A stretch of DNA of 35,642 nucleotides, taken from assembly GCF_937910895.1 (NCBI RefSeq), contig NZ_CALEMI010000119.1, forward strand, positions 1-35,642. The letters run 5' to 3'. Shown piece by piece: positions 845 to 34,422 of this stretch. How positions within the stretch are numbered: the first letter of the stretch is position 1; each line of letters starts with the position of its first letter. Origin of the DNA: an uncultured Dokdonia sp. GTDB taxonomy: Bacteria > Bacteroidota > Bacteroidia > Flavobacteriales > Flavobacteriaceae. The position numbers and the translations under genes were made by a program. The notes below the pieces were generated by a model. The model saw only the letters and a program-made list of their open reading frames with translations, had not been told where the DNA came from and did no database searches.

Positions 845-882
845 ACGCTTTCGCGACCTGCATGACGGCAGACAGAAGCGTA
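845..882. repeat. Interrupted copy of the dispersed TTTCGCGAAA palindrome
   Basis: The left part ACGCTTTCGCG (845-855) and the right end AAGCGTA (876-882) match the palindrome found elsewhere in the window. Twenty bases at 856-875 lie between them and contain a small CTGC/GCAG stem of their own. It lies between the terminator and the stop codon of the TPR membrane protein gene. Confidence 0.65.
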
Positions 883-883
883 C

Positions 884-1699
884 TTATTTTGATTGTAATG
901 CTGCTTGTATTTTTTGAGCTTCTGTATAATTGTAGTTGTCAGGATTGCTTAAGATGAGGGTGAGCATTTCATTTGCTTTCTCTGTATTTTCAACCTTTAA
1001 ATACATCAAAAGTTTATACCAATATCCATAGGAACTTTGAAGTGAATTTGTCGCAATTAGTGTGTTGTATGTTTGGTGTGCTTTCTCTAGATTTTCAGTT
1101 TGAAAATAAGAAGCTCCAAGATACATGAGTGCATACGAATAATAGGGATCACTGGCATCTATCGTATCTTTAAAATAACGGATTGCCTCTTTGTACTTTT
1201 GAGAAATGTACAGCGATTCTCCTTCTATAATAGCAGCTTGTGTATCTCCTTTTTCTCGTAGAGATGGTAATGTTTCCCAGTTGGCATATTGATCATAAAC
1301 GCTGCTAGATTGGGAGTTTATAAAGAATGGAAGTGCACATAATAAAAGGACAGCAGCTGCAATCGCCATACGATAATATATACGTCTGTCTTTCGTGTCT
1401 TTTTTCTTTTCGTAGTCTGCTCCTACCTCTCGTATAGTTTCTGATATTTCTGTAAAGGGATCGCTACGCAGTGTCTTTTTCAACTCTTGTAATTCTTGGT
1501 TGTCAGAATCATTTGTTAGTGTTGCCCAATTATCTTCTTTAAAAGAATCTTGTAATGATTCTTGAAGCAACACATCTTCTTGTAGAAGTTGATCATTAGT
1601 CAATTTTTCTTCAAAATTCACTACTTCTTCCTGAGACATCTTTTTTTGTAAATATGCCTCTATCTCTTGTTGTCTTTTGTCATCAAAAATTTGACTCAT
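884..1699 (-). CDS. Membrane TPR protein, probable anti-sigma factor of the adjacent ECF sigma factor
   Basis: This 271-residue protein has three parts. Residues 1-105 are charged and start with a helix (EIEAYLQKKMSQEEVVNFEEKL) of the kind that opens many Bacteroidota anti-sigma proteins. One membrane segment lies at about 110-127 (MAIAAAVLLLCALPFFI). Residues 140-271 carry two to three TPR-like helix pairs (SLYISQKYKEAIRYFKDTI; YLGASYFQTENLEKAHQTY). With lysine/arginine-rich residues just before the membrane segment, the N-terminus should be cytoplasmic and the TPR part periplasmic. Its ATG overlaps the sigma factor stop by four bases (ATGA), implying translational coupling. No zinc-finger cysteines are present, so it is not a ZAS-type anti-sigma. 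The anti-sigma role is inferred from position, topology and the N-terminal helix; a TPR scaffold without sigma binding is the alternative. Confidence 0.7.
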   Translation of the reverse strand: MSQIFDDKRQQEIEAYLQKKMSQEEVVNFEEKLTNDQLLQEDVLLQESLQDSFKEDNWATLTNDSDNQELQELKKTLRSDPFTEISETIREVGADYEKKKDTKDRRIYYRMAIAAAVLLLCALPFFINSQSSSVYDQYANWETLPSLREKGDTQAAIIEGESLYISQKYKEAIRYFKDTIDASDPYYSYALMYLGASYFQTENLEKAHQTYNTLIATNSLQSSYGYWYKLLMYLKVENTEKANEMLTLILSNPDNYNYTEAQKIQAALQSK

Positions 1700-2253
1700 C
1701 TCTTTAATTTACGGTATTTTCGATCTTCTTTTATTAACTGAATGATTTTTGCCTTACATTTAAAAACGCGTTGTCTTACGGTGTTTACAGATGTATAGTC
1801 TAATTCTTGAAGAATATCTTCATAACTCATTCCATTAAAATAGCTTCCTAAAATCTCTTTACAATTTGGAGATAATAATTGAAACTTTTCTTGGTAAAAT
1901 TCTAATCTTTTTTGTTCTAAAATAAATAATCCTAGGTCTGCTTCTTTATCTACATAGTGTGCTGGATCATGATTCATTACCCTATTTTTATTACTTTTTA
2001 GAGTTCTTCTCCAAATATTTTTACAAATGGTAAAAAAATAGGCTTCAAAAGAATTTACTTTTAATGGGCTTTCTTTATGTTTTACAATAAGATACATAAG
2101 ACTATCGTGAAAAACGTCTTGCACATCTTCTTCTTTTCCTTTGTTATCTAAAACAAACGATTTTACTTTAGGAAAAAAAGTTTCATAAATACTCGCAACT
2201 ACTTTTCTATCATTATGTATTAATCCATTCAAATACTTTTCAGTTTCTTCCAT
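1696..2253 (-). CDS. ECF-type RNA polymerase sigma factor
   Basis: 185 residues, the usual size for an extracytoplasmic-function sigma-70 factor. Region 2 is seen at about residues 20-90, including VQDVFHDSLMYLIVKHKE and FEAYFFTICKNIWRR, the core-RNAP-binding and -10 recognition part. Region 4 is seen at about 120-180 with a helix-turn-helix (LSPNCKEILGSYFNGMSYEDILQELDYTS, then VRQRVFKCKAKI). It would direct RNA polymerase to a small regulon, probably including its own operon. The gene is followed with a 4-base overlap by the membrane TPR protein and is divergent from the subtilase gene across 116 bases. The start ATG at 2253 is preceded by AT-rich DNA without a good Shine-Dalgarno, normal in this phylum. 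The family call is firm; the trigger and regulon are unknown. Confidence 0.92.
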   Translation of the reverse strand: MEETEKYLNGLIHNDRKVVASIYETFFPKVKSFVLDNKGKEEDVQDVFHDSLMYLIVKHKESPLKVNSFEAYFFTICKNIWRRTLKSNKNRVMNHDPAHYVDKEADLGLFILEQKRLEFYQEKFQLLSPNCKEILGSYFNGMSYEDILQELDYTSVNTVRQRVFKCKAKIIQLIKEDRKYRKLKR

Positions 2254-2320
2254 AGATTACTTTGTAGCGTTTTTAAAAAAAATCCTTAAATTAATTTGGG
2301 TAATAAATTCTAACTAATAC

Positions 2321-2332
2321 TACTTTAAAGTA
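2321..2332. promoter_or_regulatory. 12-bp perfect palindrome in the divergent sigma/subtilase promoter region
   Basis: TACTTTAAAGTA is its own reverse complement. An AGAGT-A-ACTCT inverted repeat (2333-2343) follows directly. Both sit roughly midway between the divergent start codons (2253 and 2370). They could be an operator or overlapping promoter elements; no phylum-standard TAnnTTTG box was found in this gap. Confidence 0.4.
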
Positions 2333-2369
2333 AGAGTAACTCTTTTTATTAATTTTTAACACCATAAAG

Positions 2370-3641
2370 ATGAAAAAAATAATTGGTAGTTTTTTAATAG
2401 TCATAAGTTTATTGATAGCATCTTGCTCTCATACTGATGATACTATAGAGGAAAACATCGTTACAGGAGCAAACTACAAAGCACAATCTACAGCTGTAAA
2501 TTCTCCAAAATTTTCTGATAGAGAACTTATTATTCAATATAAAAAAAATACAAGACCTAGTAAAAAAGCGGCATTAAGGCAATACTATCATGTCGTAGAC
2601 TATGAAGTATGTACGCACTGTGATGGTACTATTGAGAAATGGGATTTTGGCCCTGGAATTGATTTAGAAAATAAATTTGGCTCTGTAAGTTCTGGTAGTG
2701 GTGGCGCAGAAAGTATCCAAAATGTAACTATCGAATTTAGTTTTGAAAATGAAGAAGAGATTGCTTCTCTTATAGGAGGATCTGGTTATACAAATGATGC
2801 TGATCATATTGCTTCTAGTAATCAAAACGCAGTGATCATAGCTGTTTTAGATTCTGGTATTGATGTTAATTATCCTACTTTTGATTCCAATCCTTTTTTA
2901 TACAATGCTGCTAGTCATGGTATCTCAGGATTACATTCTGGATGGGATTATGTAAATGAAGATAATACTTGTTATGATGATTATGAACAAGTACACGGTA
3001 CTGCAGTAAGTACACTTATTTACGAATCACTTAATCACGCTGATATCCCCTACCGAGTATTGCCTGTAAAAATCGCAAATCAGGACGGTGAAGTAAGTAT
3101 ATTTGATATGTTATGTGGTATGATGTTCTCACTACCTAAAGCAAATATTCTTCATATAAGTGCTGGTTGGTATGACGCTGCAGGTGCAAATCCAAACACC
3201 ACTAGTATTTTTTTAGATATATTATCTCAGTATGAAGATGTACTCGTTGTTACTTCAGCAGGGAATTATTCGAATAACAATGACGATACCATCGCTCATT
3301 ATCCTTCCAATTTTTCTGCTATGATTTCTAACGTCATTGCTGTTGGCGCTACGAATGAAGAGGTTACAGATGCTGCTTATTTTACAAATTACGGTAGATA
3401 CACCGTCGATTTTATGTCCAATGGAACTAATCTCCCTTTTGTAAATAGTCTGGAACAACCTGTGCCTATTTCTGGGACTTCCTTCTCAACTCCTTTAGTA
3501 ACTGCTGTTGCCGCTAAAATACTCTATGATTCTGGTATGAGCTATACTCCATACGAAATCAAACAAGAATTAGATAGTAATGGTATCCCCGTTACCTACG
3601 CAAAACAAACCATATATAATAAATATATTATGCCTTTATAG
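2370..3641 (+). CDS. Subtilisin-like serine protease (S8 family), lipoprotein
   Basis: 423 residues beginning with a lipoprotein signal peptide whose lipobox LIASC gives an acylated Cys19. Residues 48-130 form a pro-region-like segment (ELIIQYKKN, then a C81-x-x-C84 pair in a VCTHCDGTIEKW motif). The S8 domain follows with all four expected residues: Asp161 (AVLDSGID), His209 (VHGTA), Asn299 of the oxyanion hole (TSAGNYS) and Ser371 (SGTSFSTP). The enzyme is therefore predicted to be active, and anchored facing the periplasm or the outer membrane. There is no T9SS sorting domain. It is divergent from the sigma factor and 94 bases upstream of the CHAT gene, with a terminator between, so the two plus-strand genes may be transcribed separately. 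A role in cutting the CHAT protein or the anti-sigma is a hypothesis. Confidence 0.9.
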   Translation: MKKIIGSFLIVISLLIASCSHTDDTIEENIVTGANYKAQSTAVNSPKFSDRELIIQYKKNTRPSKKAALRQYYHVVDYEVCTHCDGTIEKWDFGPGIDLENKFGSVSSGSGGAESIQNVTIEFSFENEEEIASLIGGSGYTNDADHIASSNQNAVIIAVLDSGIDVNYPTFDSNPFLYNAASHGISGLHSGWDYVNEDNTCYDDYEQVHGTAVSTLIYESLNHADIPYRVLPVKIANQDGEVSIFDMLCGMMFSLPKANILHISAGWYDAAGANPNTTSIFLDILSQYEDVLVVTSAGNYSNNNDDTIAHYPSNFSAMISNVIAVGATNEEVTDAAYFTNYGRYTVDFMSNGTNLPFVNSLEQPVPISGTSFSTPLVTAVAAKILYDSGMSYTPYEIKQELDSNGIPVTYAKQTIYNKYIMPL

Positions 3642-3669
3642 TAAATATACATATAGCATAATTTAGAGG

Positions 3670-3703
3670 AAAAGTCTTTGATTGATAATCGAAGACTTTT
3701 TTT
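3670..3703 (+). terminator. Intrinsic terminator after the subtilase gene
   Basis: A 13-bp stem (3670-3682 with 3688-3700, one G-U pair), a 5-base loop and a run of T. It separates the subtilase from the CHAT gene. Confidence 0.8.
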
Positions 3704-3735
3704 ATACTTATTTTTAAGGTAACTAACTCCTAATT

Positions 3736-6486
3736 ATGTACAAACCAATTTATTATTTCTTCGTGTGTTTTGGTGTACTCTGTAATCTCCAAACATACTC
3801 TCAAGAAAATTTAAAAGTCACTTTTGATCGTATATATTCTGATAGTCAACAATCCAATGGAGATAAAATTGAAAATATACATCAGTTACTTTCTAAAACA
3901 GATACACTCACTGTGACGCCTGAATTAGGGTATGCATATCACAAACTAGGGTTGCTATATAATGCTAAACAAAGCTATGAAAAAGCAATACAAGAAACTT
4001 TAAAAGCAATAGAAATAAGAAGTTCCATTAAAGAGATAGATTCTAAAGATTTAAATAATAGTTTATATAATACTTTTATTTATTACAAAGCATTAGGAAA
4101 AGATCAAGAAGGACAGATATACTTAGAAAAAATTCTAGAAAATAAAGGTGCCGATAAATTTAATTTTAAAGCCCTTATCGAATTAGCACTACTACAAAGT
4201 AATGAAGGTGATTATTTTAAAGCGCTTCAATATTTAGAACCTGTTGTATTATCATTTGACATTTATAAAGATGAAAGGACGTTTATTCTTGGTCATCTAT
4301 CCTGTATAGAGACGTATAGTAAAATGAGCATGCCTCAAAAGTATTTAGAAAAAGTATCGCTACATAAAGAAAAAATAGAGTCGCTTAAAGACTATGTTTC
4401 TTCTAAAGAGATAGCAGATATGCATACAAATTTAGGGACTATTTTTGAGAAAGTAAATGAAAAAGAAAAAGCGATTATTCACTATGAAAAAGCGCTGTCT
4501 TTATATATACAAGCTGAGGATTCTAATAATATCGGTACTTTATATACTAATATTGCCGCTATACATTCAAGAAAAAATGAACATGAAAAAGCAAAAAAAT
4601 ACTATGCAAAAGCTTTAGAAATAAATGATGATCCTATCAAAAGAGCTGATGTTTATGACAACCAAGGATTTTATCTCCTAACGGATGATCCCAAGGAAAA
4701 GATTCCTTATTATCAAAAAGCTATTTATACAGCTTTGAATCAAGACTATGATTCTACTAATATTAGTCAGTTACCTCCTATAAACTCTTTTAAAGAGTAC
4801 ATATACAAGCCTGATGTACTAGAATATCTCGTCAATAAAGCTAGTGCTTGGTTAGATGCATATCATTTAGAAAAAAATCGCACCTATCTTGAATATGCAA
4901 AAGAAACTCTTTACTTAGTAGATGAGTTAGTATCTTTAATTCGACTAGATAGTGACGTAGATCAATCTAAACTTTTTTGGATCAATAGTGGTGTAGACTC
5001 TTATATGCTTGCCGTAGAAGCTTGCTATTTATTAAATGAACCAGAAGATGCCTTTTATTTTATGGAAAAAAATAAAGCTTTACTCCTTCTAGAACATTTG
5101 GACAAACGCTATACACGACAGAGTCTAGATATCCCTGTCTCTATTTTACAAAAAGAAAAGCACCTTCTTAAAAAGAGAATAGCCATTAAACAACAACTTC
5201 AAAAAACAAAAAACAACATTAAACTGCAACAGGAATTTATAGAAGTAGACAACGTATATGTTATGTTTTTGGATTCTATAAAGCGTGAATTCCCAACATA
5301 CTATACCATAAAAACCGAACCTAAAATTTTATCACTTAAAGAAAGTATAGAAAAACACGTCACAAATGACACCTACCTTATAGAATATATTATCAATACA
5401 TCCAGTGGATATGGTATCTTCTGTTCTAAGGATATTACTCATTTTTTTAAGATTCAAGAAGTTCCAGAATTACTACAACAAGTCCAATTTCTCAAACGTG
5501 AATTAAGCGCTCCATTTACAACAAGAGAAGCGTTTAGCACCTATCAAGATACTTCGTATGTGGTATTCAAAAAACTATTCCCATTTGTAGAAAAAACAGA
5601 AGATCTTGAAAAGAAAAAACTAGTTATTATTCCAGACTATGAACTTCATAACCTCCCGTTTTCAGCGCTTACTTTAAGCAATGAAGCAACAAGTTTCAAA
5701 CTAGATTACCTACTTCATCATACAGAAACAGTGTACTTACATTCTGCTTCTGTTTTTCAACAGATTAACAAAACAGCAAAGACATCAGCTCCTAGGATTA
5801 CTGGATTTGCGCCAACTAATTTTAAAAATAACAACTTAATAGATTTAAATAAAAGTGAAGAAGAAATGAAAGAACTCGCTTCTTTTTTACCCATGTCATT
5901 ACAATTAAAGGAAGAGGCTACAAAATCTTCTTTTATTTCAAGTTTAAAAAACACCAGTATTATTCATATAAATTCTCATGCAGGATATAGTACAAATAGT
6001 ACCCCATGGCTACAATTATATGATGATAAGATTCTTCTAGATGAATTATATGATGTAGTGAATAATACTAATCTTATTATTCTGGATGCCTGCAAAGGCG
6101 CACAAGGAGATCAAGAAGCTGGCGAAGGAATTATGAGTTTGTCTCGTGGCTTTTTCTATAGCGGTACTCAAAGCGTCATTGCTTCTCATTGGAATGTAAA
6201 TGAAACAGCTAATAATGAAATTTTATATACATTTTATAAAGAACTTAAAGAAGGAAAGACTAGATCTAAAGCATTACATACAGCACAAAAGTCTTATATA
6301 AACAATCATCAACTAGAGCAAACCTCTCCTTATTTCTGGGCAGCTAACACCCTAACAGGCGATGACACCTCACTAGAATTAGCACCAGATTATTTTTGGC
6401 TTAAAATAGTGGGGATTTTGATCCTAATAGGTATTATCGTATTTGCTTTAATATATATCAAAAAAAAGAGGGTATCTACAAACTAG
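3736..6486 (+). CDS. TPR-CHAT protease, exported and membrane-anchored at the C-terminus
   Basis: 916 residues. A signal peptide occupies about 1-23 (IYYFFVCFGVLCNLQTYS, then Q). TPR repeats run from about 70 to 330 (ELGYAYHKLGLLYNAKQSY; LGTIFEKVNEKEKAIIHYEKAL; IAAIHSRKNEHEKAKKYYAKAL). A helical linker leads to a CHAT (caspase HetF associated with TPRs) domain at about 540-880. The caspase-like dyad is present: His748 in HINSHAG and Cys786 in LDACKGAQGD, followed by GFFYSGTQSVIASHWNVNE. One membrane segment is at about 886-907 with a KKKR tail. This topology (cleaved signal, C-terminal anchor, positive tail) puts the protease domain outside the cytoplasm. The partner genes are an ECF sigma factor, a TPR anti-sigma candidate and a subtilase. 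CHAT proteins are known as cysteine proteases, for example TPR-CHAT of the type III-E CRISPR complex. The substrate here is unknown. Confidence 0.9.
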   Translation: MYKPIYYFFVCFGVLCNLQTYSQENLKVTFDRIYSDSQQSNGDKIENIHQLLSKTDTLTVTPELGYAYHKLGLLYNAKQSYEKAIQETLKAIEIRSSIKEIDSKDLNNSLYNTFIYYKALGKDQEGQIYLEKILENKGADKFNFKALIELALLQSNEGDYFKALQYLEPVVLSFDIYKDERTFILGHLSCIETYSKMSMPQKYLEKVSLHKEKIESLKDYVSSKEIADMHTNLGTIFEKVNEKEKAIIHYEKALSLYIQAEDSNNIGTLYTNIAAIHSRKNEHEKAKKYYAKALEINDDPIKRADVYDNQGFYLLTDDPKEKIPYYQKAIYTALNQDYDSTNISQLPPINSFKEYIYKPDVLEYLVNKASAWLDAYHLEKNRTYLEYAKETLYLVDELVSLIRLDSDVDQSKLFWINSGVDSYMLAVEACYLLNEPEDAFYFMEKNKALLLLEHLDKRYTRQSLDIPVSILQKEKHLLKKRIAIKQQLQKTKNNIKLQQEFIEVDNVYVMFLDSIKREFPTYYTIKTEPKILSLKESIEKHVTNDTYLIEYIINTSSGYGIFCSKDITHFFKIQEVPELLQQVQFLKRELSAPFTTREAFSTYQDTSYVVFKKLFPFVEKTEDLEKKKLVIIPDYELHNLPFSALTLSNEATSFKLDYLLHHTETVYLHSASVFQQINKTAKTSAPRITGFAPTNFKNNNLIDLNKSEEEMKELASFLPMSLQLKEEATKSSFISSLKNTSIIHINSHAGYSTNSTPWLQLYDDKILLDELYDVVNNTNLIILDACKGAQGDQEAGEGIMSLSRGFFYSGTQSVIASHWNVNETANNEILYTFYKELKEGKTRSKALHTAQKSYINNHQLEQTSPYFWAANTLTGDDTSLELAPDYFWLKIVGILILIGIIVFALIYIKKKRVSTN

Positions 6487-6493
6487 ATAACCC
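6460..6493 (-). terminator. Terminator of the cysteine/tryptophan lipoprotein gene, embedded in the CHAT gene end
   Basis: On the minus strand a GGGT(T)ATCT...AGATACCC hairpin (arms 6485-6493 and 6470-6477, one bulged base) is followed by CTC and eight T (6460-6467). It lies over the last codons and stop of the CHAT gene. On the plus strand the hairpin has no T run. Confidence 0.7.
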
Positions 6494-6528
6494 CTTCTCT
6501 TACTAAACCAAAATTAATACACTACCGA

Positions 6529-7428: not shown

Positions 7429-7737
7429 AATATATTGATTTTCAGACCTACTCTATTTAATAATTCGCTTTTCGGTGACCGCGCTTTATAAACAAGTAGT
7501 AGAATAAAAGATTCATTACCCAAAAAATTTATCTATTCCTTAATTTTTTAAATTACTCATTACCAGAAAGATAAACAATACAAGATATATACGCTTTCGC
7601 GAAAGCGTTATTTCACAAACAAAAGCCTGAAAATTGAAAATAGACATACGTATTGGAAGTCTTGTTTTTGTATGTCCTGAAAGAAGTTGAATTTTAAAAA
7701 ATGAGAGAATACGAGTATCTTCCTAATAATTATTATG
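7429..7737. other. 309-base gap upstream of the lipoprotein gene
   Basis: Holds the 5' region of the minus-strand lipoprotein gene, one perfect copy of the dispersed palindrome (7591-7608), and a weak 7-bp inverted repeat (GACATAC 7643-7649, GTATGTC 7670-7676) downstream of the propeller lipoprotein that could be part of its terminator. No convincing promoter box and no small gene were seen. Confidence 0.5.
7591..7608. repeat. Dispersed palindrome, perfect 18-bp copy
   Basis: ACGCTTTCGCGAAAGCGT, identical to its reverse complement. Intergenic; no T run follows on either strand, so it is not an ordinary terminator. Confidence 0.9.
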
Positions 7738-8973: not shown

Positions 8974-8985
8974 AATTATTAATCG

Positions 8986-10332
8986 TTACGATTTAGCTCT
9001 TGCATGCATAGGTTTGGGTCTTTCTAAAATCTCAAGAGGTACTGCATACAAATCAAAATCTTCCGCTTGTGTGACTTTTACAGTTGTAAAACCACCCGTT
9101 TTTAGATAATATTTTGTTGCGTCTATCAACACTTCATTATCTACATCTGGACTATCAAACTCTGTACGACCTACAAAGTAATTTCCTTCTTTTCGATCGA
9201 CAACTATTTTGAATTCTTGCCCAATTTTTTGTTGATTTAACTCCCAAGAGATTTGCGATTGAATCTCCATAATTTGATTGGCTCGGTCCATTTTTACTTC
9301 TTCAGGAACATCATCCTCCAAGTTATACGCATGCGTATTTTCTTCGTGAGAATAGGTAAAGCATCCCAAACGCTCAAAACGTTGGTCTTTTACCCATTGT
9401 TTCAGCAGTTGAAAATCTTCTTCAGTTTCTCCGGGATATCCTACGATCAAAGTGGTACGGATGGTCATATTGGGTACGCTTTCGCGAAAGCGGTCTAACA
9501 AGGCATTCGTCTTTGCCATTGTGGTTCCTCGTCGCATCGACTTTAAAATGGAATCCGAAATATGCTGTAACGGAATATCAATATAATTACACACTTTGGG
9601 TTCACGATTCATTACCTCTAGGACATCCATCGGAAATCCTGTTGGGAATGCATAGTGCAAACGAATCCACTCCACACCTTCTACTTTTACAAGCGCTTCC
9701 AAAAGCTCAGCAAGATTACGCTTTTTATAGAGATCTAGTCCGTAATAGGTAAGATCTTGTGCAATAAGAATCAACTCCGAAACGCCTTTTGCTGCTAATT
9801 TCTCAGCTTCTGTGACAAGATGCTCTATAGGTTTTGATTTATGTTTTCCACGCATTAAAGGAATGGCACAAAACGAACATGGACTATCGCAACCCTCAGC
9901 AATTTTAAGGTATGCATAGTTTTTTGGCGTTGTGGTTATACGTTCTCCAATAAGTTCGTGCTTATAATCTGCTCCCAAAGCTTTTAATAATCCAGGCAAT
10001 TCTGTCGTACCAAAATACTGGTCTACATCTGGAATTTCTTTTTGTAAATCAGGCTTATAACGCTCAGATAGACATCCTGTTACAAACACTTTATCAACAT
10101 CCCCTTGCTCCTTTTGTTTTACGTACTCCAAAATCGTATTTACCGATTCTTCTTTGGCATTATCTATAAAACCACAGGTATTAATTACGACAATATTCCC
10201 TTCTTCTTCATGAACAACTTCTTTACCATTAGCTTTCAATTGTCCCATCAGCACTTCACTGTCATACACGTTCTTAGAACATCCAAGAGTAACTACATTG
10301 ATCTTATTCTTTTTCAGGGTTTTTGTTCTCAT
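8986..10332 (-). CDS. rimO: Ribosomal protein S12 methylthiotransferase RimO
   Basis: 448 residues, the normal length. The enzyme is a radical-SAM protein with two iron-sulfur clusters that adds a methylthio group to an aspartate of ribosomal protein S12 in the cytoplasm. The N-terminal UPF0004 domain has its three cysteines (C18 in LGCSKN, C53 in NTCGFI, C87 in VTGCLSE). The radical-SAM motif CxxxCxxC is C148, C152, C155 (EGCDSPCSFC). A C-terminal TRAM domain follows (KEGNYFVGRTEFDSPDVDNEVLI). The S12-specific RimO form rather than MiaB is favoured by LGCSKN and overall similarity. A dispersed palindrome is inside the gene, translated as DRFRES at about residues 280-286. It lies downstream of ftsY, behind a terminator, with its own TATCTTTG promoter box. 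Confidence 0.95.
   Translation of the reverse strand: MRTKTLKKNKINVVTLGCSKNVYDSEVLMGQLKANGKEVVHEEEGNIVVINTCGFIDNAKEESVNTILEYVKQKEQGDVDKVFVTGCLSERYKPDLQKEIPDVDQYFGTTELPGLLKALGADYKHELIGERITTTPKNYAYLKIAEGCDSPCSFCAIPLMRGKHKSKPIEHLVTEAEKLAAKGVSELILIAQDLTYYGLDLYKKRNLAELLEALVKVEGVEWIRLHYAFPTGFPMDVLEVMNREPKVCNYIDIPLQHISDSILKSMRRGTTMAKTNALLDRFRESVPNMTIRTTLIVGYPGETEEDFQLLKQWVKDQRFERLGCFTYSHEENTHAYNLEDDVPEEVKMDRANQIMEIQSQISWELNQQKIGQEFKIVVDRKEGNYFVGRTEFDSPDVDNEVLIDATKYYLKTGGFTTVKVTQAEDFDLYAVPLEILERPKPMHARAKS
9477..9492. repeat. Dispersed palindrome inside rimO
   Basis: CGCTTTCGCGAAAGCG, perfect 16-bp palindrome in coding sequence, read as R-F-R-E-S. Confidence 0.9.
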
Positions 10333-11598: not shown

Positions 11599-11616
11599 AC
11601 GCTTTCGCGAAAGCGT
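11599..11616. repeat. Dispersed palindrome, perfect 18-bp copy
   Basis: ACGCTTTCGCGAAAGCGT, in the gap between secDF and ftsY, upstream of the ftsY promoter and downstream of the secDF terminator. Confidence 0.9.
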
Positions 11617-15810: not shown

Positions 15811-15830
15811 TAAATTTATGTGTTGCTTTA

Positions 15831-15850
15831 TACGCTTTCGCGAAAGCGTA
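15831..15850. repeat. Dispersed palindrome, perfect 20-bp copy
   Basis: TACGCTTTCGCGAAAGCGTA, inside the mdh 3' untranslated region, between the stop codon and the terminator hairpin. Confidence 0.9.
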
Positions 15851-15863
15851 TCCATTCTTATTT

Positions 15864-17025: not shown

Positions 17026-19137
<2,112 letters not shown>

Positions 19138-20898: not shown

Positions 20899-21311
20899 AG
20901 CTAATATTTTTTAATTTTTTATAATAATTTATAGTTCAAATATCTAATTATGGTTTCATTAACAAAATCCATAACGCATATTTAATTACAATATGAAACA
21001 AAAAACAACACTATAAGTTCAATGCATAAGGTATACGCTTTCGCGAAAGCGTATTTAGAAAAATTTTGAAAGTTTTTATCTGATGCTACGACTTATTTTA
21101 TTGTGTTCTGCTTTTTGTTTGATACAAACATATATTGAAATCACACTTTAAAACAAGTAAAGGCTATGTGTTTTCTGGAAAAGACACCCGCATTTCGCGG
21201 AAAACAGACATCAACAGTGCTAGTCAATTAGTTGATGGAATAAATCTTAAGCTTTATTTAACAGCCTAGAATTAGAACCCACAGTATCTTTAAACCAAAA
21301 TCAAATATACC
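20899..21311. other. 413-base divergent intergenic region between asnB and the DUF2911 gene
   Basis: Contains a perfect dispersed palindrome (21034-21053) and a degenerate one, TTTCGCGGAAA (21194-21204). Two hairpins lie toward the DUF2911 gene: TGTTTTC/GAAAACA (21169-21175, 21200-21206) and CATCAAC/GTTGATG (21209-21215, 21231-21237). A TATCTTTA box about 20 bases before the plus-strand gene is near the -7 consensus. No protein-coding signal was seen. Confidence 0.5.
21034..21053. repeat. Dispersed palindrome, perfect 20-bp copy
   Basis: TACGCTTTCGCGAAAGCGTA in the divergent gap between asnB and the DUF2911 gene. Confidence 0.9.
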
Positions 21312-22448: not shown

Positions 22449-22449
22449 G

Positions 22450-23709
22450 TCAGGTCTTTTGTTTTTTCTTACGGGCAGCTGGAAAAAGCACGTTATTTAA
22501 AATTAAACGATAGCCCGGAGAGTTAGGGTGTAATTCTAATTCTGTTTTAGGATCCCCTACACGATGACGGTAATCTTCAGGGTCATGCCCTCCGTAAAAT
22601 GTAAAAAAACCTTTTCCTTTAATACCGTGTATGTATCGCGCTTCCCCGTTCGTCAGATTCTCTCCCATAATCAGCACGTTTGACTTAATCAAGTTAGAAT
22701 CATACGAGGTAGTTTGCCCCATAAATCCTTTGACTAACGCTGTGTGATTTTGACAAAGCATTGTTGGGATGGGATCCCACTTGGCACTATAATCTTTCAA
22801 CGTAAAATAATCGGTTTCAAAAGGGATCCCGCGTTTACGTGTCATATCAATAGATGAAAACTCGTATACGGTAGGAGAACGTTCTAGAGTAAAATTTTTA
22901 AAGGCAAAGGTTTTACCAAAATCAATTTTAGATTGGTAATCGGCATCTGAGGCATCCCCATCAAACATCGGTTCACAGATGTCAACACCTTCGGCGGCAA
23001 GCGCAATATCAAAACTATCGGTAGCACTACACATGGCAAACATAAAACCTCCTCCTACTACATAGTCACGTATTTTTAAAGAAACATCTCTTTTTTCTTC
23101 AGAGACTTAATCATAGCCTAATTTTGTAGCTAAGTTCTCAGCCGTTTTCTTTTCTTCTATATACCAAGGTGCTGCTCGGTAGGCACCATAAAACTTCCCG
23201 TATTGTCCTGTAAAGTCTTCGTGATGCAAGTGTAACCAATCATATAAAATCAATTGATCGCTTAGTACTTCTTCATCATAAATTGTTTCATACGGAATCT
23301 CAGCATACGTCAATACCATGGTTACGGCATCATCCCAAGGCACTTTACTATCGGGTGTATATACCGCAATTTTAGGTGCTTTTTCGAGAACGACGGCTTC
23401 CATATTTTGAGAAGGGCTACTAATCATCGTTAAGAGTTCTTCGGTACTTCCGTCAGATAATACTTCATAAGAAACTCCACGGATGGTGCATTCTCTTCGG
23501 ATGTCCTCTGTGTCGGGTACTAAAAAGGAACCGCCTCTATAGTTGAGTAACCATTTTACTTTGATTTGTTGGTCTAAAGCCCAATAAGTGATTCCATAGG
23601 CTTTTAAGTGTTCTCGTTGACCGTCTACATCCATGGGTAATAAAATATAGGACGCTTGCGCGAAAGCATATGTAAATAAAAATATAACTAAAAATAAAAT
23701 TTTCTTCAT
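22450..23709 (-). pseudogene. Secreted protein gene broken by one in-frame TAA (family often labelled asparagine synthetase B)
   Basis: The frame opens at 23709 with a signal peptide (FLVIFLFTYAFAQA) and runs to GYD, then meets TAA at 23107-23109. It continues in the same frame without any shift (VSEEKRDVSLKIRDYVVGGG, FMFAMCSATDSFDIAL) to the true stop at 22450. Together the parts give about 418 residues, the size I recall for a Bacteroidota family often labelled asparagine synthetase B; it lacks the SGGLDSS motif of real asparagine synthases, so that label is doubtful. A lysine codon changed by one base (AAA to TAA) explains the break. Possibilities are a recent nonsense mutation, a sequencing error or readthrough. 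The downstream part could also be made from an internal ATG at 23043. The gene precedes the DUF922 protease with one base between. A degenerate palindrome copy encodes part of the signal peptide. Confidence 0.8.
23652..23669. repeat. Degenerate dispersed palindrome inside a signal peptide coding region
   Basis: ACGCTTGCGCGAAAGCAT, the consensus with one change in the core. On the minus strand it is read as A-F-A-Q-A at the signal peptidase site. Confidence 0.65.
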
Positions 23710-26222: not shown

Positions 26223-26255
26223 AAAAAAATCCGAAACTCAAATAGGTTCGGATTT
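26223..26255 (-). terminator. Intrinsic terminator of accA
   Basis: AAATCCGAA (26227-26235) pairs with TTCGGATTT (26247-26255); the minus strand continues with seven T. It is 24 bases after the accA stop. Confidence 0.85.
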
Positions 26256-26278
26256 GGTAGTAAGTGAAAAAATGGGGA

Positions 26279-27232: not shown

Positions 27233-27286
27233 TTTCAGTTTGTTACCTTTTACGATCCCTCGTAATGGTTTGTTTGGTTTATAATA

Positions 27287-27294
27287 CAAATATA
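27287..27294 (-). promoter_or_regulatory. Probable accA promoter -7 box
   Basis: Minus strand TATATTTG just after the EamA gene stop, 54 bases before the chosen accA start. The -33 element is not obvious. Confidence 0.5.
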
Positions 27295-27301
27295 ATAGTT
27301 T

Positions 27302-28213
27302 CTACTTGACTATGCCTTTTTTTGAACGTAAACGGTTTCTATTTTTCAGAATCCCATTTGCAATGACCACAAGTAAGATCACCACTGCTCCGTAATAAAA
27401 TTCTGTCTTCATTTGTTCTTTATCGCCTAGTACCATAAATGCTAGTAAAATTCCGTAAACTGGTTCTAAGTTTATCGTCAACATAATGGTGTACGGACTG
27501 AGGTGTCTCATTACTTTGACGGAAGCAATAAACGCATACGCTGTACAGATAGAGGCAAGAATCAATAGATAAATCCAATCTGTGTATGGCAACGTAAAAA
27601 AGTCTTGGGTAAAGAAGGAGTCCGCTTTCGCGAAAGCTAAATATCCCGTAATAAAAAGGGTGCCAATAAGCAGTTCGTAAAACGAGATTTTGGTAGGATT
27701 ATGATCATGCACAAACTTGCCATTGACCAACGTAAAGACAGCCGAAAGAAACGCCGAAAATAAGGCAAGTCCAATTCCTAATCTATATTCTGGTTGTACC
27801 TCAAAAATGAGATATAATGCGCCTATCACAATAGCTCCAAAGAGCAGCTCATACCAAATCAGCTTCCGTTTATAAAAAATAGGTTCTAAAATGGCTGTAA
27901 AAAAAGCACCCGTACTCATCATCGCTAGTGTGATTGAAACGTTTGACACTTTGATAGCCCCAAAAAATGTAAGCCAATGCACGGCGATGATAATGCCTGC
28001 GATGGAAAAGGAAAGGAAGGCTTTTCGCGAAAGCGAAATATCTATTTTTTTCCACTTGATATATGCATATATAAATAGAGAAGCAATGCCCATTCGGAAC
28101 CATACCAATGGCACCGAATCTATACTAATGAGAGAACCTAGTACGGCGGTAAATCCCCATATAAATACGATGAAATGAAAATGGAGGTAACTTTGGAGTT
28201 TAGCGTTTTGCAT
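27302..28213 (-). CDS. EamA/DMT family transporter
   Basis: 303 residues with about ten hydrophobic segments arranged as two EamA repeats, typical of the drug/metabolite transporter superfamily. Markers are FIWGFTAVLGSLIS at the N-terminus and the PLVWFRMGIASL segment of repeat 1, and ICTAYAFIASVKVMRHLSPYTIMLTINLEPVYGILLAFMVLGD of repeat 2. The substrate cannot be told from sequence. The ATG lies within the last codons of the upstream LptF/LptG-family gene (14-base overlap), implying coupled translation. Two dispersed palindromes lie inside the gene, read as AFAKA and SRKAF, both in predicted loops. Confidence 0.88.
   Translation of the reverse strand: MQNAKLQSYLHFHFIVFIWGFTAVLGSLISIDSVPLVWFRMGIASLFIYAYIKWKKIDISLSRKAFLSFSIAGIIIAVHWLTFFGAIKVSNVSITLAMMSTGAFFTAILEPIFYKRKLIWYELLFGAIVIGALYLIFEVQPEYRLGIGLALFSAFLSAVFTLVNGKFVHDHNPTKISFYELLIGTLFITGYLAFAKADSFFTQDFFTLPYTDWIYLLILASICTAYAFIASVKVMRHLSPYTIMLTINLEPVYGILLAFMVLGDKEQMKTEFYYGAVVILLVVIANGILKNRNRLRSKKGIVK
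27623..27638. repeat. Dispersed palindrome inside the EamA gene, copy 1
   Basis: CGCTTTCGCGAAAGCT; 14 central bases are perfectly palindromic. Read as L-A-F-A-K-A on the minus strand. Confidence 0.85.
28020..28035. repeat. Dispersed palindrome inside the EamA gene, copy 2
   Basis: GCTTTTCGCGAAAGCG; the TTTCGCGAAA core is intact at 28023-28032 and one T is inserted on the left. Read as S-R-K-A. Confidence 0.8.
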
Positions 28214-29285: not shown

Positions 29286-30416
29286 TTATAATCTTTTATC
29301 CATTTGTTTTACCATCATCTCTTTCCAAGTTACAAAGGTACCCTCAAGAATTTGCTTGCGTGCTTCTCGTACCAACCACATATAAAATCCTAGGTTGTGT
29401 ATCGTGGCTATTTGCATTCCTAAAAGTTCGTGACATTTAAATAAATGGCGTAAATAGGCTTTACTATATTCTGTATCTACCCAAGTGATACCCATCTCAT
29501 CTATCGCAGAAAAATCTTCTGCCCATTTTAGATTTTTGATATTGATGGTTCCGTGGGCTGTAAATAACATCCCATTACGTGCATTACGTGTAGGCATAAC
29601 ACAGTCAAACATATCAATACCTAAGGCTATATTTTCTAAAATATTAATAGGGGTTCCTACGCCCATTAAATATCGTGGTTTTTCTTCTGGCAATACGGCG
29701 GTAACCACCTCAGTCATGGCATACATTTCTTCGGCAGGTTCTCCTACAGAAAGTCCGCCAATGGCATTTCCAAAAGCATTGGAATTTGCAATATACTCTG
29801 CAGATTGTGTTCTTAAATCTTTATAGACACTGCCTTGTATAATAGGAAACAATGCTTGTTCAAATCCATACAATGCAGGTGTTTTTTCAAAATGTGTAAT
29901 ACATCTATCTAACCAACGGTGGGTCATGTGCATAGATCGTTGTGCATATCTATAATCACAAGGATAGGGCGTACATTCATCAAAAGCCATGATAATATCT
30001 GCGCCTATCTGACGTTGGATTTCCATCACATTTTCTGGAGTGAATAAATGCGTAGATCCATCTACATGCGATTTAAATTTCACCCCTTCCTCTTTGATCT
30101 TACGACGACCCGACAGTGAATATACCTGAAACCCTCCACTATCAGTAAGGATAGGACGATCCCAATTCATAAATTTATGCAATCCTCCTGCTTTTTGTAA
30201 GGTACCCGTCCCTGGACGTAAGTATAAATGGTAGGTATTTCCAAGAATAATATCAGGATTGATATCTTGCCGTAACTCACGTTGATGTACTCCTTTTACT
30301 GAAGCCACCGTACCAACCGGCATAAAAATAGGCGTTTCGATCACTCCATGATCTGTTGTAAGGGTTCCTGCTCTAGCTTGACTAGCAGGATCTGTTGTAA
30401 GAAGGTCAAATTGCAT
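29286..30416 (-). CDS. tgt: tRNA-guanine transglycosylase (queuine tRNA-ribosyltransferase) lacking zinc cysteines
   Basis: 376 residues from the ATG at 30416 (MQFDLLTTDPASQARAG); a TTG nine bases upstream is less likely. Tgt exchanges guanine for the queuosine precursor at the wobble base of GUN-anticodon tRNAs. The catalytic segments are present: LTDSGGFQVYSL with Asp92 and IDMFDCVMPTRNARNG. PIIQGSVYKDLR and GGLSVGEPAEEM are also typical. The CxCxxC zinc ligands normally before YSRAYLRHLF are absent; here residues 306-320 read DEMGITWVDTEYSKA. The later histidine (TIHNL, H340) is kept. I recall this as a trait of Bacteroidota Tgt rather than damage. First gene of a likely operon with the LPS permease. 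Confidence 0.93.
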   Translation of the reverse strand: MQFDLLTTDPASQARAGTLTTDHGVIETPIFMPVGTVASVKGVHQRELRQDINPDIILGNTYHLYLRPGTGTLQKAGGLHKFMNWDRPILTDSGGFQVYSLSGRRKIKEEGVKFKSHVDGSTHLFTPENVMEIQRQIGADIIMAFDECTPYPCDYRYAQRSMHMTHRWLDRCITHFEKTPALYGFEQALFPIIQGSVYKDLRTQSAEYIANSNAFGNAIGGLSVGEPAEEMYAMTEVVTAVLPEEKPRYLMGVGTPINILENIALGIDMFDCVMPTRNARNGMLFTAHGTINIKNLKWAEDFSAIDEMGITWVDTEYSKAYLRHLFKCHELLGMQIATIHNLGFYMWLVREARKQILEGTFVTWKEMMVKQMDKRL

Positions 30417-30802
30417 AGGGCGCAAAGATAGTTTTTATAAATACGATGTGCCATAGGGCTTTTGATAAAATCTCGTTAAAGGCAAGTTTTATAATAAAGT
30501 ATCATTATTATGAATATTTAGAAGATTTCATTAGCAATTAACTCCTTAGTTTTATTTTATTTGCAAATAATTATTTTTTAAGATCAAAAGAACCTTAAAT
30601 ATAAATTAACAAAGGCTGAGTACGTTAGAATTAAATATGGATCACAACTATAAAACAAGCCTTTTGTTACTAATAAATTTCAAATTTACAATATGTGCTT
30701 TACTCCTTTAAAAGTAAATACACTCTAAATAATGACAAAATAACGCATTATATTATAAAAAAAGAAACTCTATATTTCACTCCTAAAATCACAAATAAAT
30801 AA
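30417..30802. other. 386-base very AT-rich gap between tgt and the MBOAT gene
   Basis: Apart from the tgt promoter box, and a TATATTTC (30771-30778) that might be the -7 box of the plus-strand gene, nothing specific was seen: no repeats, no hairpin with T run, no coding signal. Confidence 0.5.
30423..30430 (-). promoter_or_regulatory. Probable tgt promoter -7 box
   Basis: Minus strand TATCTTTG only six bases before the tgt ATG, so the transcript would have almost no leader. The -33 element is not clear. Confidence 0.4.
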
Positions 30803-32251
30803 ATGCTATTTAACTCAATAGACTTTGCTGTATTTTTACCAATAGTATTCGTGCTATATTGGTTTGTTACTAATAAAAATTTAAGCATTCAAAATTTATT
30901 AATTGTTGTAGCTAGTTATTTATTTTATGGGTGGTGGGATTGGAGGTTTCTTTCCTTAATTTTCTTCAGCACATTAGTAGATTACGCTATTGGAGTAAAA
31001 TTATCTAGTGAAGAAAATAGATTAAAAAGGAAAGTATTATTATTTACAAGTATTTTTGTGAATCTTGGTTTTCTAGGTTTTTTTAAATATTATAATTTCT
31101 TTCTAGATAATTTTGTAAGTGCATTTTCATTTTTTGGAACAGAAATAAATTCAAATTCATTAAATATTATTTTACCTGTTGGAATAAGTTTTTACACTTT
31201 TCAAACACTTAGTTATACTATAGATGTTTATAAGAAAAAACTTGAGCCTACAAAAGATTTTATTGCCTTTACTGCCTTTGTGAGTTTCTTTCCACAATTA
31301 GTTGCAGGCCCCATAGAAAGAGCTACAAATCTACTACCTCAATTCTTTAGCAAACGAACTTTTGAATACGACAAAGCCGTAGATGGGCTGAGACAAATAT
31401 TATGGGGATTATTTAAAAAAATTGTTATCGCTGACAACTCTGCAAAAATTGCAAATGAGATATTCAATCATTCGGGCGATTATTCTGGTAGTACTTTGAT
31501 ATTAGGAGCAATTTTTTTTACTTTTCAAATTTATGGAGATTTTTCAGGGTATTCTGATATAGCAATAGGTACCTCAAGACTGTTTGGATTTAATTTAAAA
31601 CAGAATTTTGCATTTCCTTATTTTTCAAGAGACATTGCAGAGTTTTGGAGACGTTGGCATATTTCTCTTTCTACATGGTTTCGAGATTATTTGTACATTC
31701 CTTTGGGTGGAAGTCGTGGTGGGATTTGGATGAAAATAAGAAATACATTTGTGATATTTATTGTTAGCGGATTTTGGCACGGAGCAAATTGGACTTTTGT
31801 AGTTTGGGGTGCATTAAACGCTTTATATTTTTTACCATTACTTATCCTTAATAAAAATAGAGTACATACAGGTGTTGTTGCAGAAGATTCTATTTTTCCA
31901 AAGTTTAACGAACTTTATCAGATGGGAGTCACATTTAGTTTGACTGTCTTAGCATGGATATTTTTTAGAGCAGAAAACATTGGACACGCATGGTCTTATC
32001 TATCTACGATTTTCTCAAAATCGTTATTTACAATTCCTGATTTTCCGGGGATGCTTAAGGCGTTAACTACGTTAATTTTAATATTAGTTTTTTTAGGTAT
32101 AGAATGGCTTGGCAGAAATGAGCAATACGCAATTGCAAATTTAAAATTCACTTTGAAAAAGCCTGTTCGCTATGCGCTATACTATGCCATTATATTTTCT
32201 ATATTTTGGTTTATGGGAGAAGAACAAGAATTTATTTACTTTCAATTTTAA
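30803..32251 (+). CDS. MBOAT family O-acyltransferase
   Basis: 482 residues with about ten membrane helices. It belongs to the membrane-bound O-acyltransferase family of the DltB/AlgI type, which moves acyl groups from the cytoplasm onto cell-surface polymers. Signatures are SYLFYGWWDWRFL, LPVGISFYTFQTLSYTIDVYKK, FPQLVAGPIERA, the RRWHISLSTWFRDYLYIPLGG block with His286, and SGFWHGANWTF with the catalytic His326. The start overlaps directly with LFNSIDFAVFLPIVFVLYW, the normal N-terminus. The gene is followed after nine bases by an SGNH protein, the usual partner in glycan O-acetylation. DNA here is visibly more AT-rich than in the housekeeping genes, as in horizontally acquired surface-polysaccharide modules. 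The substrate is unknown. Confidence 0.93.
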   Translation: MLFNSIDFAVFLPIVFVLYWFVTNKNLSIQNLLIVVASYLFYGWWDWRFLSLIFFSTLVDYAIGVKLSSEENRLKRKVLLFTSIFVNLGFLGFFKYYNFFLDNFVSAFSFFGTEINSNSLNIILPVGISFYTFQTLSYTIDVYKKKLEPTKDFIAFTAFVSFFPQLVAGPIERATNLLPQFFSKRTFEYDKAVDGLRQILWGLFKKIVIADNSAKIANEIFNHSGDYSGSTLILGAIFFTFQIYGDFSGYSDIAIGTSRLFGFNLKQNFAFPYFSRDIAEFWRRWHISLSTWFRDYLYIPLGGSRGGIWMKIRNTFVIFIVSGFWHGANWTFVVWGALNALYFLPLLILNKNRVHTGVVAEDSIFPKFNELYQMGVTFSLTVLAWIFFRAENIGHAWSYLSTIFSKSLFTIPDFPGMLKALTTLILILVFLGIEWLGRNEQYAIANLKFTLKKPVRYALYYAIIFSIFWFMGEEQEFIYFQF

Positions 32252-32260
32252 ACGGGTCAC

Positions 32261-33151
32261 ATGAAAAAATTTATTTTCAAACTACTGCTTTTTATTCTAC
32301 CTGTCATACTATTCCCAGTATTAATTGCATCTATAGACGCCCTTGTATTTAAAAAAAACAACTCGCAGTCTGATGTAAAAATTCTGATTATAGGAGACTC
32401 TCATACAGAGACAGGTATTAATGATGGCTTAAATCCTAAAATAAAAAACATCTCTCAATCTGGTGAAACTTATTTTTTTACTTATTATAAATTAAAAAAA
32501 ATACTTTCTAATGAAGACCTTTCCAAAGTTGTTCTAAGTTTATCTCCACATAATCTGAGTTTTTTTCAAGACGAAAAAACCTATGCTCTAAATAATTCAG
32601 ATAGATATAAAAATTTGTACCCAAGATATTTTTTCAGTCTAGAGCCTCAAGGAGTTCAAAAATTAAATGAGAATTCCCAAGAAAATATTTATTCTGTTTT
32701 AAATTTAATTCTTAAAACCAATATCAAAACATTAATAAAAGGAAGAAACGCATACATTGGTAATTATAAAGAATCTCAAAAATCAAACTTAGATACCCTT
32801 TTAATCAATGAAAAAATTAAAACTCATTTTTACAATTCTAAAAATGAGTTGTATGATGAAAGCCAAGTTCAAATTGAGTATTTAAAAAAAATACACGATT
32901 TATGTATTGAAAAAGGCATCGGACTTTACATCATTAACTTACCCGTTCATAATCTTTATAAATCACAAATACCAACGAATGCTACTAGCAACTTCGAAAA
33001 GGTAATTCTTGAACTAAAAAATAAGGGAGTTAGTATTTTAGAATATTCTCAAATTGAATTACCAGATAACTATTTTGGTGATGGTGACCACATTAATTCT
33101 TTTGGAGCAAATCAGATTACTCAAAAACTAATCAAAGATCTTAAATTGTGA
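32261..33151 (+). CDS. SGNH-hydrolase-like protein, partner of the MBOAT acyltransferase
   Basis: 296 residues. One N-terminal membrane segment (about 6-27, FKLLLFILPVILFPVLIASID) anchors a soluble domain outside the cytoplasm. Block I of the SGNH/GDSL fold is GDSHTE (G45-D46-S47-H48) and the final block is D274-x-x-H277 (GDGDHINSFGA), so the Ser-Asp-His triad can be assigned. Between them is an unusual, lysine- and asparagine-rich region. In known pairs (AlgI/AlgJ/AlgX, PatA/PatB) the MBOAT passes the acyl group and the SGNH protein attaches it to the glycan, which is the proposed role here. Very AT-rich, with many AAA and AAT codons, like its neighbour. Confidence 0.82.
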   Translation: MKKFIFKLLLFILPVILFPVLIASIDALVFKKNNSQSDVKILIIGDSHTETGINDGLNPKIKNISQSGETYFFTYYKLKKILSNEDLSKVVLSLSPHNLSFFQDEKTYALNNSDRYKNLYPRYFFSLEPQGVQKLNENSQENIYSVLNLILKTNIKTLIKGRNAYIGNYKESQKSNLDTLLINEKIKTHFYNSKNELYDESQVQIEYLKKIHDLCIEKGIGLYIINLPVHNLYKSQIPTNATSNFEKVILELKNKGVSILEYSQIELPDNYFGDGDHINSFGANQITQKLIKDLKL

Positions 33152-33153
33152 TA

Positions 33154-33192
33154 TTTTAATAGAAACCAAAACAAAAAGGAAAGCTATTAAAA
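33154..33192. terminator. Possible shared terminator hairpin between convergent genes
   Basis: TTTTAATAG (33154-33162) and CTATTAAAA (33184-33192) form a 9-bp AT-rich stem with a 21-base loop, overlapping the stop codon of the transporter gene. No good T run is present, so this is weak. Confidence 0.3.
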
Positions 33193-34422
33193 CAGCGTAC
33201 TCACATACCAGAAACTAAAAGCAATTAATAACACAATACTAACGATAGCATATAGTTTCATAGGAAGCCCTAGTTTTGCTTTTTGGGGTACGTCTGTACT
33301 ATTAAAAACCAAGTAATTACAAATCGCATAAAAAGGCGCTGTCAAAAAGGATAAAATAGTCGCTACTTTAATTAATAGTCCCATCTCACTCACAAAAAAG
33401 AACAGAATCACGCAGGTTCCTATAATCAGGACAATTAACCAAAAGAGATAACTCTTAGCTATTTTCTTTAACCCTAAAAGTTCTGTTGCGGTAGACATTG
33501 CTCTCGGAGAAGCATCTAGCGTGGTTAAGGTAGTACTAAACATCGTAGTAAAAGCTGCAATCCCAATAAGAATTGCCGCCCAATCACCAAGACTACTTGT
33601 ATACATACTAATAAGCTGACCTGCAAAAACTCCGCCTTTATCAGAAAATGTATCGCCACTCCCAAACATGACCAAAGCACCCAGCGTGACAAAACAAATT
33701 CCTAAAACAACGGTTCCAAAATATCCAATGTTAAAGTCAAATAAGGAGGTTTTTATATCATTTTTTTGTGTTTTCCCTTTTTCTACAGTCCACAAAGAGT
33801 GGAATATAGAAATATCTAAAGGCGCTGGCATCCACCCCATAAATGCAATCAAAAAAGCAATACCTACCGCATCTGTAGGTAATAACTGTATCAGTCCTTT
33901 TGAAGATCCTAGACCTTCTGTTGTTATGCTTTCGCGAAAAGCGAACAACACAGCAAACAATGTACTCACGGTTAACACCAGAATTATAACTTTCATTAAG
34001 TTGTCTAGCAATTTGTAACGCCCTAATGCTAAAATCATAGCACAAAATAAGGTGATCACAACACTCCAAACAGCAATATCCCAATCAAGTCCAAAAAGTT
34101 GGACTGCCAATCCTGCAGTTACAATCGTTACTGCCGTTTGAATGGTAAACATCGTTAATAAAGAAAGTACAACATACGTAATAAGAACGCCTTTACCTAA
34201 CCCGAGATATCCGTGTAGTAAGCTTTTACCAGTCGCTGCCGCATACCGAGGTCCAAACTGAAATGATGGATATTTTATAATATTAATCAGTAATAAAGCC
34301 CATAATAAACCAAAACCATAATAGCCTCCCGCTTTGGTACTTTGCACCAAATGAGAAACGCCAATTGCAGCTCCTGCAAAAAGAAGTCCTGGTCCTAATC
34401 TTTTTAGAGAAATCCCACTCAT
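33187..34422 (-). CDS. NRAMP-related metal-ion transporter with a non-standard metal site
   Basis: 411 residues with about eleven membrane helices, of the NRAMP (SLC11) family, which import divalent metals with protons. The N-terminus RLGPGLLFAGAAIGVSHLVQSTKAG aligns with the canonical helix 1, but the metal-binding DPGN is replaced by GVSH (residues 21-24). In helix 6 the canonical MPH is MPAP (Met198-Pro199), so the methionine is kept. Metal choice may therefore differ from Mn/Fe. I recall this variant as widespread in Bacteroidota, but its substrate is not known to me. The ATG overlaps the sigma factor stop by four bases (ATGA). A dispersed palindrome is in a loop (AFRESI, about 161-166). 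Confidence 0.88.
   Translation of the reverse strand: MSGISLKRLGPGLLFAGAAIGVSHLVQSTKAGGYYGFGLLWALLLINIIKYPSFQFGPRYAAATGKSLLHGYLGLGKGVLITYVVLSLLTMFTIQTAVTIVTAGLAVQLFGLDWDIAVWSVVITLFCAMILALGRYKLLDNLMKVIILVLTVSTLFAVLFAFRESITTEGLGSSKGLIQLLPTDAVGIAFLIAFMGWMPAPLDISIFHSLWTVEKGKTQKNDIKTSLFDFNIGYFGTVVLGICFVTLGALVMFGSGDTFSDKGGVFAGQLISMYTSSLGDWAAILIGIAAFTTMFSTTLTTLDASPRAMSTATELLGLKKIAKSYLFWLIVLIIGTCVILFFFVSEMGLLIKVATILSFLTAPFYAICNYLVFNSTDVPQKAKLGLPMKLYAIVSIVLLIAFSFWYVSTLF
33928..33943. repeat. Dispersed palindrome inside the NRAMP-like gene
   Basis: GCTTTCGCGAAAAGCG; intact TTTCGCGAAA core at 33930-33939 with one extra A on the right. Read as A-F-R-E-S. Confidence 0.8.

Follow-up and report, generated by a model that had tools for sequence, protein, structure and literature searches.

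What is the role of a short perfect palindrome that recurs every few kilobases, within and between genes, in a bacterial chromosome? The question was raised by a 35,642-nt stretch of an uncultured Dokdonia sp. (contig NZ_CALEMI010000119.1, hereafter the window), in which the palindromic core TTTCGCGAAA is repeated. The best named relatives of the RimO protein encoded there were from Dokdonia (Flavobacteriaceae). It was found that the site is more than a palindrome: an arm of ~17 nt on each side is C-poor and G/T-rich and is mirrored about the centre. The site is symmetric, present in large excess, evenly spaced (in the single-contig genome G001 and one contig of genome G002), conserved, and found on mobile-element-like blocks and phages. 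We infer that it is the recognition site of a host-encoded dimeric DNA-binding activity with an architectural role, providing regularly spaced anchor or loop points; this reading, in which the protein, a causal part of selection and the function in DNA architecture are all putative, is tentative, with a probability of about 0.42.

Genome-wide excess and taxonomic range

In the 4.81-Mb genome of the window the core was counted 1092 times and the reversed word 22 times. In 580 kb of G001, 174 cores were found, against a Markov expectation of 0.4–2.7 depending on order; the same DNA held 159 copies of the 12-mer, 156 of the 14-mer and 115 of the 16-mer. The 12-mer CTTTCGCGAAAG had 383–937 copies in all 18 Dokdonia genomes (control, 0–2), and the lowest counts, 383 and 394, came from genomes that were 78% and 85% complete. 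At least one copy was present in 78 of 299 Flavobacteriaceae genomes; more than 400 were found in five of them, from three genera (G000, G003, G027, G258 and G207), and 0–21 in the remaining 294. The maximum in 122 genomes from other families of the order was 3. The genome of L052 (SAT51) contained 187 cores versus 15 for the control. Shuffles, the reversed-word control and the Markov expectation ruled out an origin by chance or composition, and a virus-only or element-only signal was ruled out because most copies were on the chromosome.

In a 109-row tree of RimO, a single gene only, the palindrome-rich label took three changes, two of them forced by well-supported branches; Dokdonia and G207 formed one set, and the genus g11 and L052 stood apart. 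No description of the motif was found in the open literature searched. Background was drawn from PMC4390886, PMC5217627, PMC7811141, PMC2397512 and PMC8034619, the last of which deals with ATTTCGCGAAAT-type words that human and other animal genomes lack.

Copies in the window

The window (GC content 35.4%) contained nine perfect cores and two with one mismatch, as listed below; a strand is given for the one feature that carries it.

846..880, palindrome CGCTTTCGCGA/AAGCG, with a second hairpin-like unit (857-875) splitting it
7591..7608, perfect 18-bp palindrome, intergenic (core at 7595)
9477..9492, perfect 16-bp palindrome within rimO (core at 9480)
11599..11616, perfect 18-bp palindrome, intergenic, ftsY-like and secDF genes on either side (core at 11603)
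15830..15851, perfect 22-bp palindrome, intergenic, close to the stop of an Ldh/malate dehydrogenase-type gene (core at 15836)
19115..19130, perfect 16-bp palindrome, intergenic, gyrB-like and asparagine synthase-type genes on either side (core at 19118)
21033..21054, perfect 22-bp palindrome, intergenic (core at 21039)
21193..21202, plus strand, one-mismatch core TTTCGCGGAA; possibly a chance match, given the shuffle mean below
23653..23668, degenerate copy around TTGCGCGAAA; one-mismatch core at 23656-23665
27624..27637, perfect 14-bp palindrome within an EamA-like transporter gene (core at 27626)
28023..28032, 10-bp core within the same EamA-like gene (perfect over 10 bp)
33930..33939, 10-bp core within an Nramp-like gene (perfect over 10 bp)

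The nine core positions given in an earlier note on this DNA were right, its starts being at most 3 bp off. The copy that it placed at 845 is indeed interrupted, with a 19-nt hairpin-like insert (857-875) separating CGCTTTCGCGA from AAGCG, and its degenerate copies at 21194 and 23652 correspond to the one-mismatch cores at 21193 and 23656. Its perfect length of 16–20 bp held roughly for six of the nine copies (16–22 bp) and failed for the last three (14, 10 and 10 bp). The claim that such copies cannot be due to chance was borne out: 11 core matches with at most one mismatch were found in the window, versus a shuffle mean of 1.84, and none of 100 shuffles reached 11. Genome-wide, the 1092 cores were far above the reversed-word control and lay well beyond this region, the two points on which the note had let its claim depend. 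Four copies lie in coding sequence and together use all three reading frames, as claimed (RimO aa 282, the EamA-like transporter aa 193 and aa 61, and the Nramp-like protein aa 162), and its view that selection acts on DNA instead of protein was supported. The C-poor, G/T-rich arms, the even spacing, the copies on mobile elements and phages and the hairpin nested in the copy at 845 are additions to that note.

The nested hairpin, a CCTGCCTG(A/C)CGGCAGGCAGG-like unit, sits in the palindrome after GCG, GCGA or GCGAA. It was seen at 846-880 of the window, in G000:C161, in G003:C1 (two places) and in L174 and L178 (G207). Nine genomes contained six strict copies, four of them within recognisable palindromes; the relaxed pattern occurred at two places in G207 and once in 1.49 Mb of DNA from other genera, where it stood outside any palindrome. 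The unit may be a small mobile repeat that uses the palindrome as its target. The window also encodes a TPR-CHAT protease-type protein at 3736-6486.

Anatomy of the site

The strict core spans 14–16 bp (GCTTTCGCGAAAGC, frequently TTACGCTTTCGCGAAAGCGTAA). On its 5' side C is depleted and on its 3' side, by symmetry, G is depleted, out to about 26 nt from the centre. The C content of the arm was 0.073 at 271 Dokdonia sites (background 0.185), 0.063 at 39 g11 sites (0.174), 0.090 at 75 sites on the block stretches described below (0.182) and 0.102 at 32 phage sites, some of them from near-identical phages (0.196). Four sites each of SAT51 and G059 gave 0.191 (background 0.219) and 0.125 (background 0.197), respectively. 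Sites on the block and on phages share the arms; at eight unrelated viral copies of the core the depletion was absent (0.312 versus 0.299). The arms were equally present at coding and intergenic sites, and in Dokdonia and g11 they showed T peaks at -11, -14, -17 and -20.

Both halves were required. In G001, 10 CGCTTTCG half-sites were solitary versus 285 in full sites, and half-sites outside full sites were close to expectation (7 versus 3.7 and 7 versus 6.1). The strict symmetry, the need for both halves and the arms together point to a dimeric reader of double-stranded DNA.

Recombinases prefer G/T-rich DNA, and half of the palindrome presumably resembles some Chi sequences. A recombination signal of the Chi type that is read either way, with the G/T arms as preferred loading tracts for the recombinase, would account for 5' arms that are G/T-rich with T peaks, for a frequency of about one site per 3.6–6 kb and for the presence of sites on phage and mobile DNA. 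A single-strand signal, however, should also select half-sites, and those of G001 are near chance; this explanation seems improbable.

One-mismatch neighbours of the core showed neither excess nor avoidance (41 versus 37.4 expected), and the TCGCGA hexamer was not avoided elsewhere (45 versus 39.1 expected), so that no restriction-style avoidance was seen; CGCG was slightly low (507 versus 646). These counts bear on a methylation-linked motif like HIP1 of cyanobacteria. Such a motif would likewise be an iterated palindrome in and between genes with a patchy distribution among lineages. Among eight palindrome-rich genomes, PF00145 (C5 methylase) was found in three and PF01555 (N4/N6 methylase) in two, and both were absent in G007, G008, G017 and G258, other methylase classes not having been searched. 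Thus neither common methylase family fits as the cause, the methylation signal suggested in the earlier note was not upheld for them, and with the hexamer not avoided in spite of the slightly low CGCG a methylation-linked role appears very unlikely.

Spacing and genomic placement

There was about one site per 3.6–6 kb, and in two of the three genomes examined the spacing was significantly more even than expected at random. Over 29 stretches of G001, counts per 20 kb ranged from 3 to 9 (variance/mean 0.37, P=0.0009), and no trend along the contig was observed (rho -0.11, P=0.59). For the first 100 12-mers of G001, a test that partly overlaps in DNA with that of the 29 stretches, the coefficient of variation (CV) was 0.77 (P=0.004), with 6 gaps below 1 kb versus 23 simulated. 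One contig of G002 gave a CV of 0.54 (P=0.003). The even spacing suggests a benefit that depends on the distance to the nearest site. In 13 Dokdonia genomes at least 90% complete, the correlation of site count with genome size was only weak (rho 0.43, P=0.14).

By a naive gene caller, intergenic DNA held 1.57 sites per kb and genes held 0.16; 134 sites were coding and 131 intergenic. The median distance of intergenic sites was 38 nt to a stop (96 at random) and 123 nt to a start (103 at random). A five-T run stood beside the palindrome at only 4 of 271 Dokdonia sites. As the earlier note had argued, the copies are therefore not ordinary terminators, and with about half of the sites in genes an intrinsic terminator was rejected as the main role, although the intergenic copies are close to stops. 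Large site-free gaps included a giant gene in G001 and AT-rich subtilase-domain genes in G002; the SurA/PPIase gene cluster of G001 was also a large gap, which counts against a simple foreign-DNA reading of the gaps.

Conservation and origin of the sites

The core within rimO was intact in all 11 further aligned Dokdonia genomes (DNA identity 78–83%) and in G207, of another genus (76%); it was absent in both g11 genomes. The RimO protein alignment was gap-free near the site in 108 of 108 rows, implying that this site arose by substitution; an insertion origin is ruled out at RimO only.

Cores persist at aligned positions as their surroundings diverge. Across 12 Dokdonia loci of a single syntenic region, the core was kept in 233 of 265 directed pairs (a pair may count twice), with a flank identity of 0.81 for coding pairs and 0.65 for intergenic ones. 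By distance from the centre, the identity of intergenic pairs was 1.00 at position 6, 0.93 at 7, 0.70 at 8-9 and 0.85 at 10, followed by background; the pairs were picked for a core in both members, and the inner five positions are thus identical by construction.

These results argue against a spreading repeat, of the repetitive extragenic palindrome (REP) kind or an insertion element, that copies itself as DNA. The high copy number and the second hairpin unit inside some copies would suit it, but there is no indel near the RimO site, the flanks are alike in composition and not in sequence, and genes contain about half of the sites; we regard it as scarcely probable.

Copies on a mobile-element-like block and on phages

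All 19 12-mers of G093 fell within one 78-kb block (G093:C3:32332-110028), 20 of the 21 in G303 in two contig regions, and 18 of the 19 in G068 on two contigs. Relatives of the block were seen in G303, G068, G104, G231, G095 and G118, which represent several flavobacterial genera, and the DNA identity among copies was 67–99%. A pair of 12-mers 933 bp apart recurred in seven genomes of six genera; in the G093 block it falls within a gene for outer-membrane efflux. Among 20 proteins of the block that were scanned were metal efflux pumps, P-type ATPases, a multicopper oxidase, Eco57I-type methylases, a Fic protein, a Zot-like ATPase and a serine recombinase. Because no conjugation family was found among these 20, the block is not called an integrative and conjugative element (ICE).

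On block stretches in palindrome-poor hosts 17 of 90 cores were broken, versus 18 of 306 in Dokdonia and g11 (14 of 263 and 4 of 43, respectively); the P value of 0.0005 is descriptive only, because the block copies are homologous and not independent. The presence of sites in few lineages, together with a higher proportion of broken cores on blocks elsewhere, suggests that the reader is a host factor.

The scan of viral contigs yielded 41 stretches with the 16-mer, some of which encode capsid, portal, tape-measure or terminase proteins; one site-bearing contig encoded an integrase (E=1.3e-13) and gave a weak match to a regulator. Ten AT-rich phage contigs held 43 cores in 278.5 kb, a density biased upward because they were chosen for holding the 16-mer. 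A search from one capsid protein gave 14 cores in five near-identical contigs (81 kb) and none in the other 30 loci (304 kb); it left out site-bearing phages at about 64% DNA identity (L104, L116, L118 and L120). L121, L276, L277, L116, L111 and L128 are uncultured phages with sites inside structural genes. They probably belong to palindrome-rich flavobacteria, and the motif could hence serve as a host marker.

The main rival explanation is a palindromic DNA uptake signal, in which transformation prefers site-bearing DNA and biased uptake with recombination spreads and maintains the site. To our knowledge, known uptake sequences are not palindromes. The site is common to more than one genus, as this explanation would have it; in its copy number, its evenly spaced copies and its preference for intergenic DNA it is like uptake sequences as described in PMC7811141 and PMC2397512, and the arms are reminiscent of the segments that flank the Haemophilus motif (PMC7811141). 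Nevertheless, the Neisseria DNA uptake sequence (DUS) is very rare in horizontally transferred regions according to PMC2397512, yet here sites are not scarce on transferred DNA, with 19 in the 78-kb G093 block and 43 in the ten phage contigs picked for the 16-mer. Moreover, full-length PF00437 (T2SSE, the type IV pilus/type II secretion (T2S) ATPase) was found in just 3 of 8 palindrome-rich genomes and 2 of 13 others, other pilus genes not having been searched, which also rules out a common ATPase of this type. An uptake signal is thus considered rather unlikely.

Candidate readers and the preferred explanation

We return to the host-encoded DNA-binding activity with an architectural role. The recognition site would be double-stranded and two-fold symmetric, with a strict core and C-poor, G/T-rich arms to about 26 nt from the centre, and would be read by a putative dimeric protein of the host. 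Sites would be retained since DNA resident in these cells does better with one within a few kilobases; such a need would make the spacing even and the turnover at permissive places slow, and would lead mobile elements and phages to adapt. The sites may then act as DNA-architectural anchor or loop points. In a wider form, which is offered with some hesitation, a chromosome-wide dyad of ~55 bp, placed at intervals of a few kilobases on the chromosome as well as on mobile elements and phages, would be read by a putative undescribed protein gained by a few marine Flavobacteriaceae lineages, and foreign DNA would adapt to these hosts by acquiring the mark and would lose it elsewhere.

Several observations weigh against this explanation. 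Searches for ParB, methylases (PF00145 and PF01555) and PF00437 brought out no candidate reader; ParB gave one match in each of the eight palindrome-rich genomes and 1–3 in 13 others, so that a second ParB/Noc as the reader was rejected. Nor does an architectural role account for the G/T arms. G207 (genus g191), itself palindrome-rich, had weaker arms (C 0.173 versus 0.232 at 64 sites), 32 solitary half-sites versus 55 in full sites, as many broken cores as the blocks (12 of 67) and spacing that was not significantly even (variance/mean 0.56, P=0.08); it looks half-decayed. Scattered 12-mers occurred without any block in G059 (11) and in some species of the genus g128 (up to 11). Site density was not fixed, dropping as genome size rises in the 13 Dokdonia genomes (rho -0.64, P=0.02). 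Where the syntenic partner lacked the core, 19 of 25 directed coding pairs showed an alignment gap there, and gains are poorly resolved. The cultured Nonlabens phages P12024S and P12024L had no copy in 35.0 of about 35.7 kb each, though their host may or may not be palindrome-rich. The descriptive nature of the broken-core P value belongs here as well.

The signal is strict, symmetric, evenly spaced and common to chromosome, mobile block and phages. Few genome-wide iterated signals are known (Chi, uptake sequences and HIP1), and each opened a field. Related genera without the signal are natural controls, and the reader can therefore be sought by pull-down experiments or by comparing gene content. 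The site with its arms may also be a provenance tag, as blocks and phages bearing it have probably lived in palindrome-rich hosts.

Comparison with known systems

parS and the Noc-binding site (NBS), the sites of ParB and Noc, are palindromes with TTTC/GAAA halves. The present palindrome has such halves too, but their spacing is off by two bases, the sites are everywhere and not in one region, and each palindrome-rich genome has one ParB. Chi of E. coli recurs at intervals of a few kb along the core genome and is found on phage DNA too. The site described here is like it in these respects, but it is long, symmetric and double-stranded, with no half-site excess in G001 and 32 solitary halves in G207. 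With DUS and the uptake signal sequence (USS) of Neisseria and Haemophilus it shares hundreds to thousands of copies, a fairly even distribution, an extended flank preference and permissive places; it differs in being a palindrome that needs both halves, in occurring without a common T2SSE-type ATPase, and in its presence on the block and phages. HIP1 is a short perfect palindrome, GCGATCGC, found genome-wide in cyanobacteria, in and between genes, patchy in distribution and of unsettled function (PMC4390886). The word, GCGATCGC there and TTTCGCGAAA here, and the phylum are different, and here the dyad is longer with C-poor arms, the copies are fewer and evenly spaced, and the genomes searched share no common C5 or PF01555 methylase. 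The likeness to HIP1 proposed in the earlier note is nonetheless supported, as both are short perfect palindromes iterated in and between genes and patchy among lineages.

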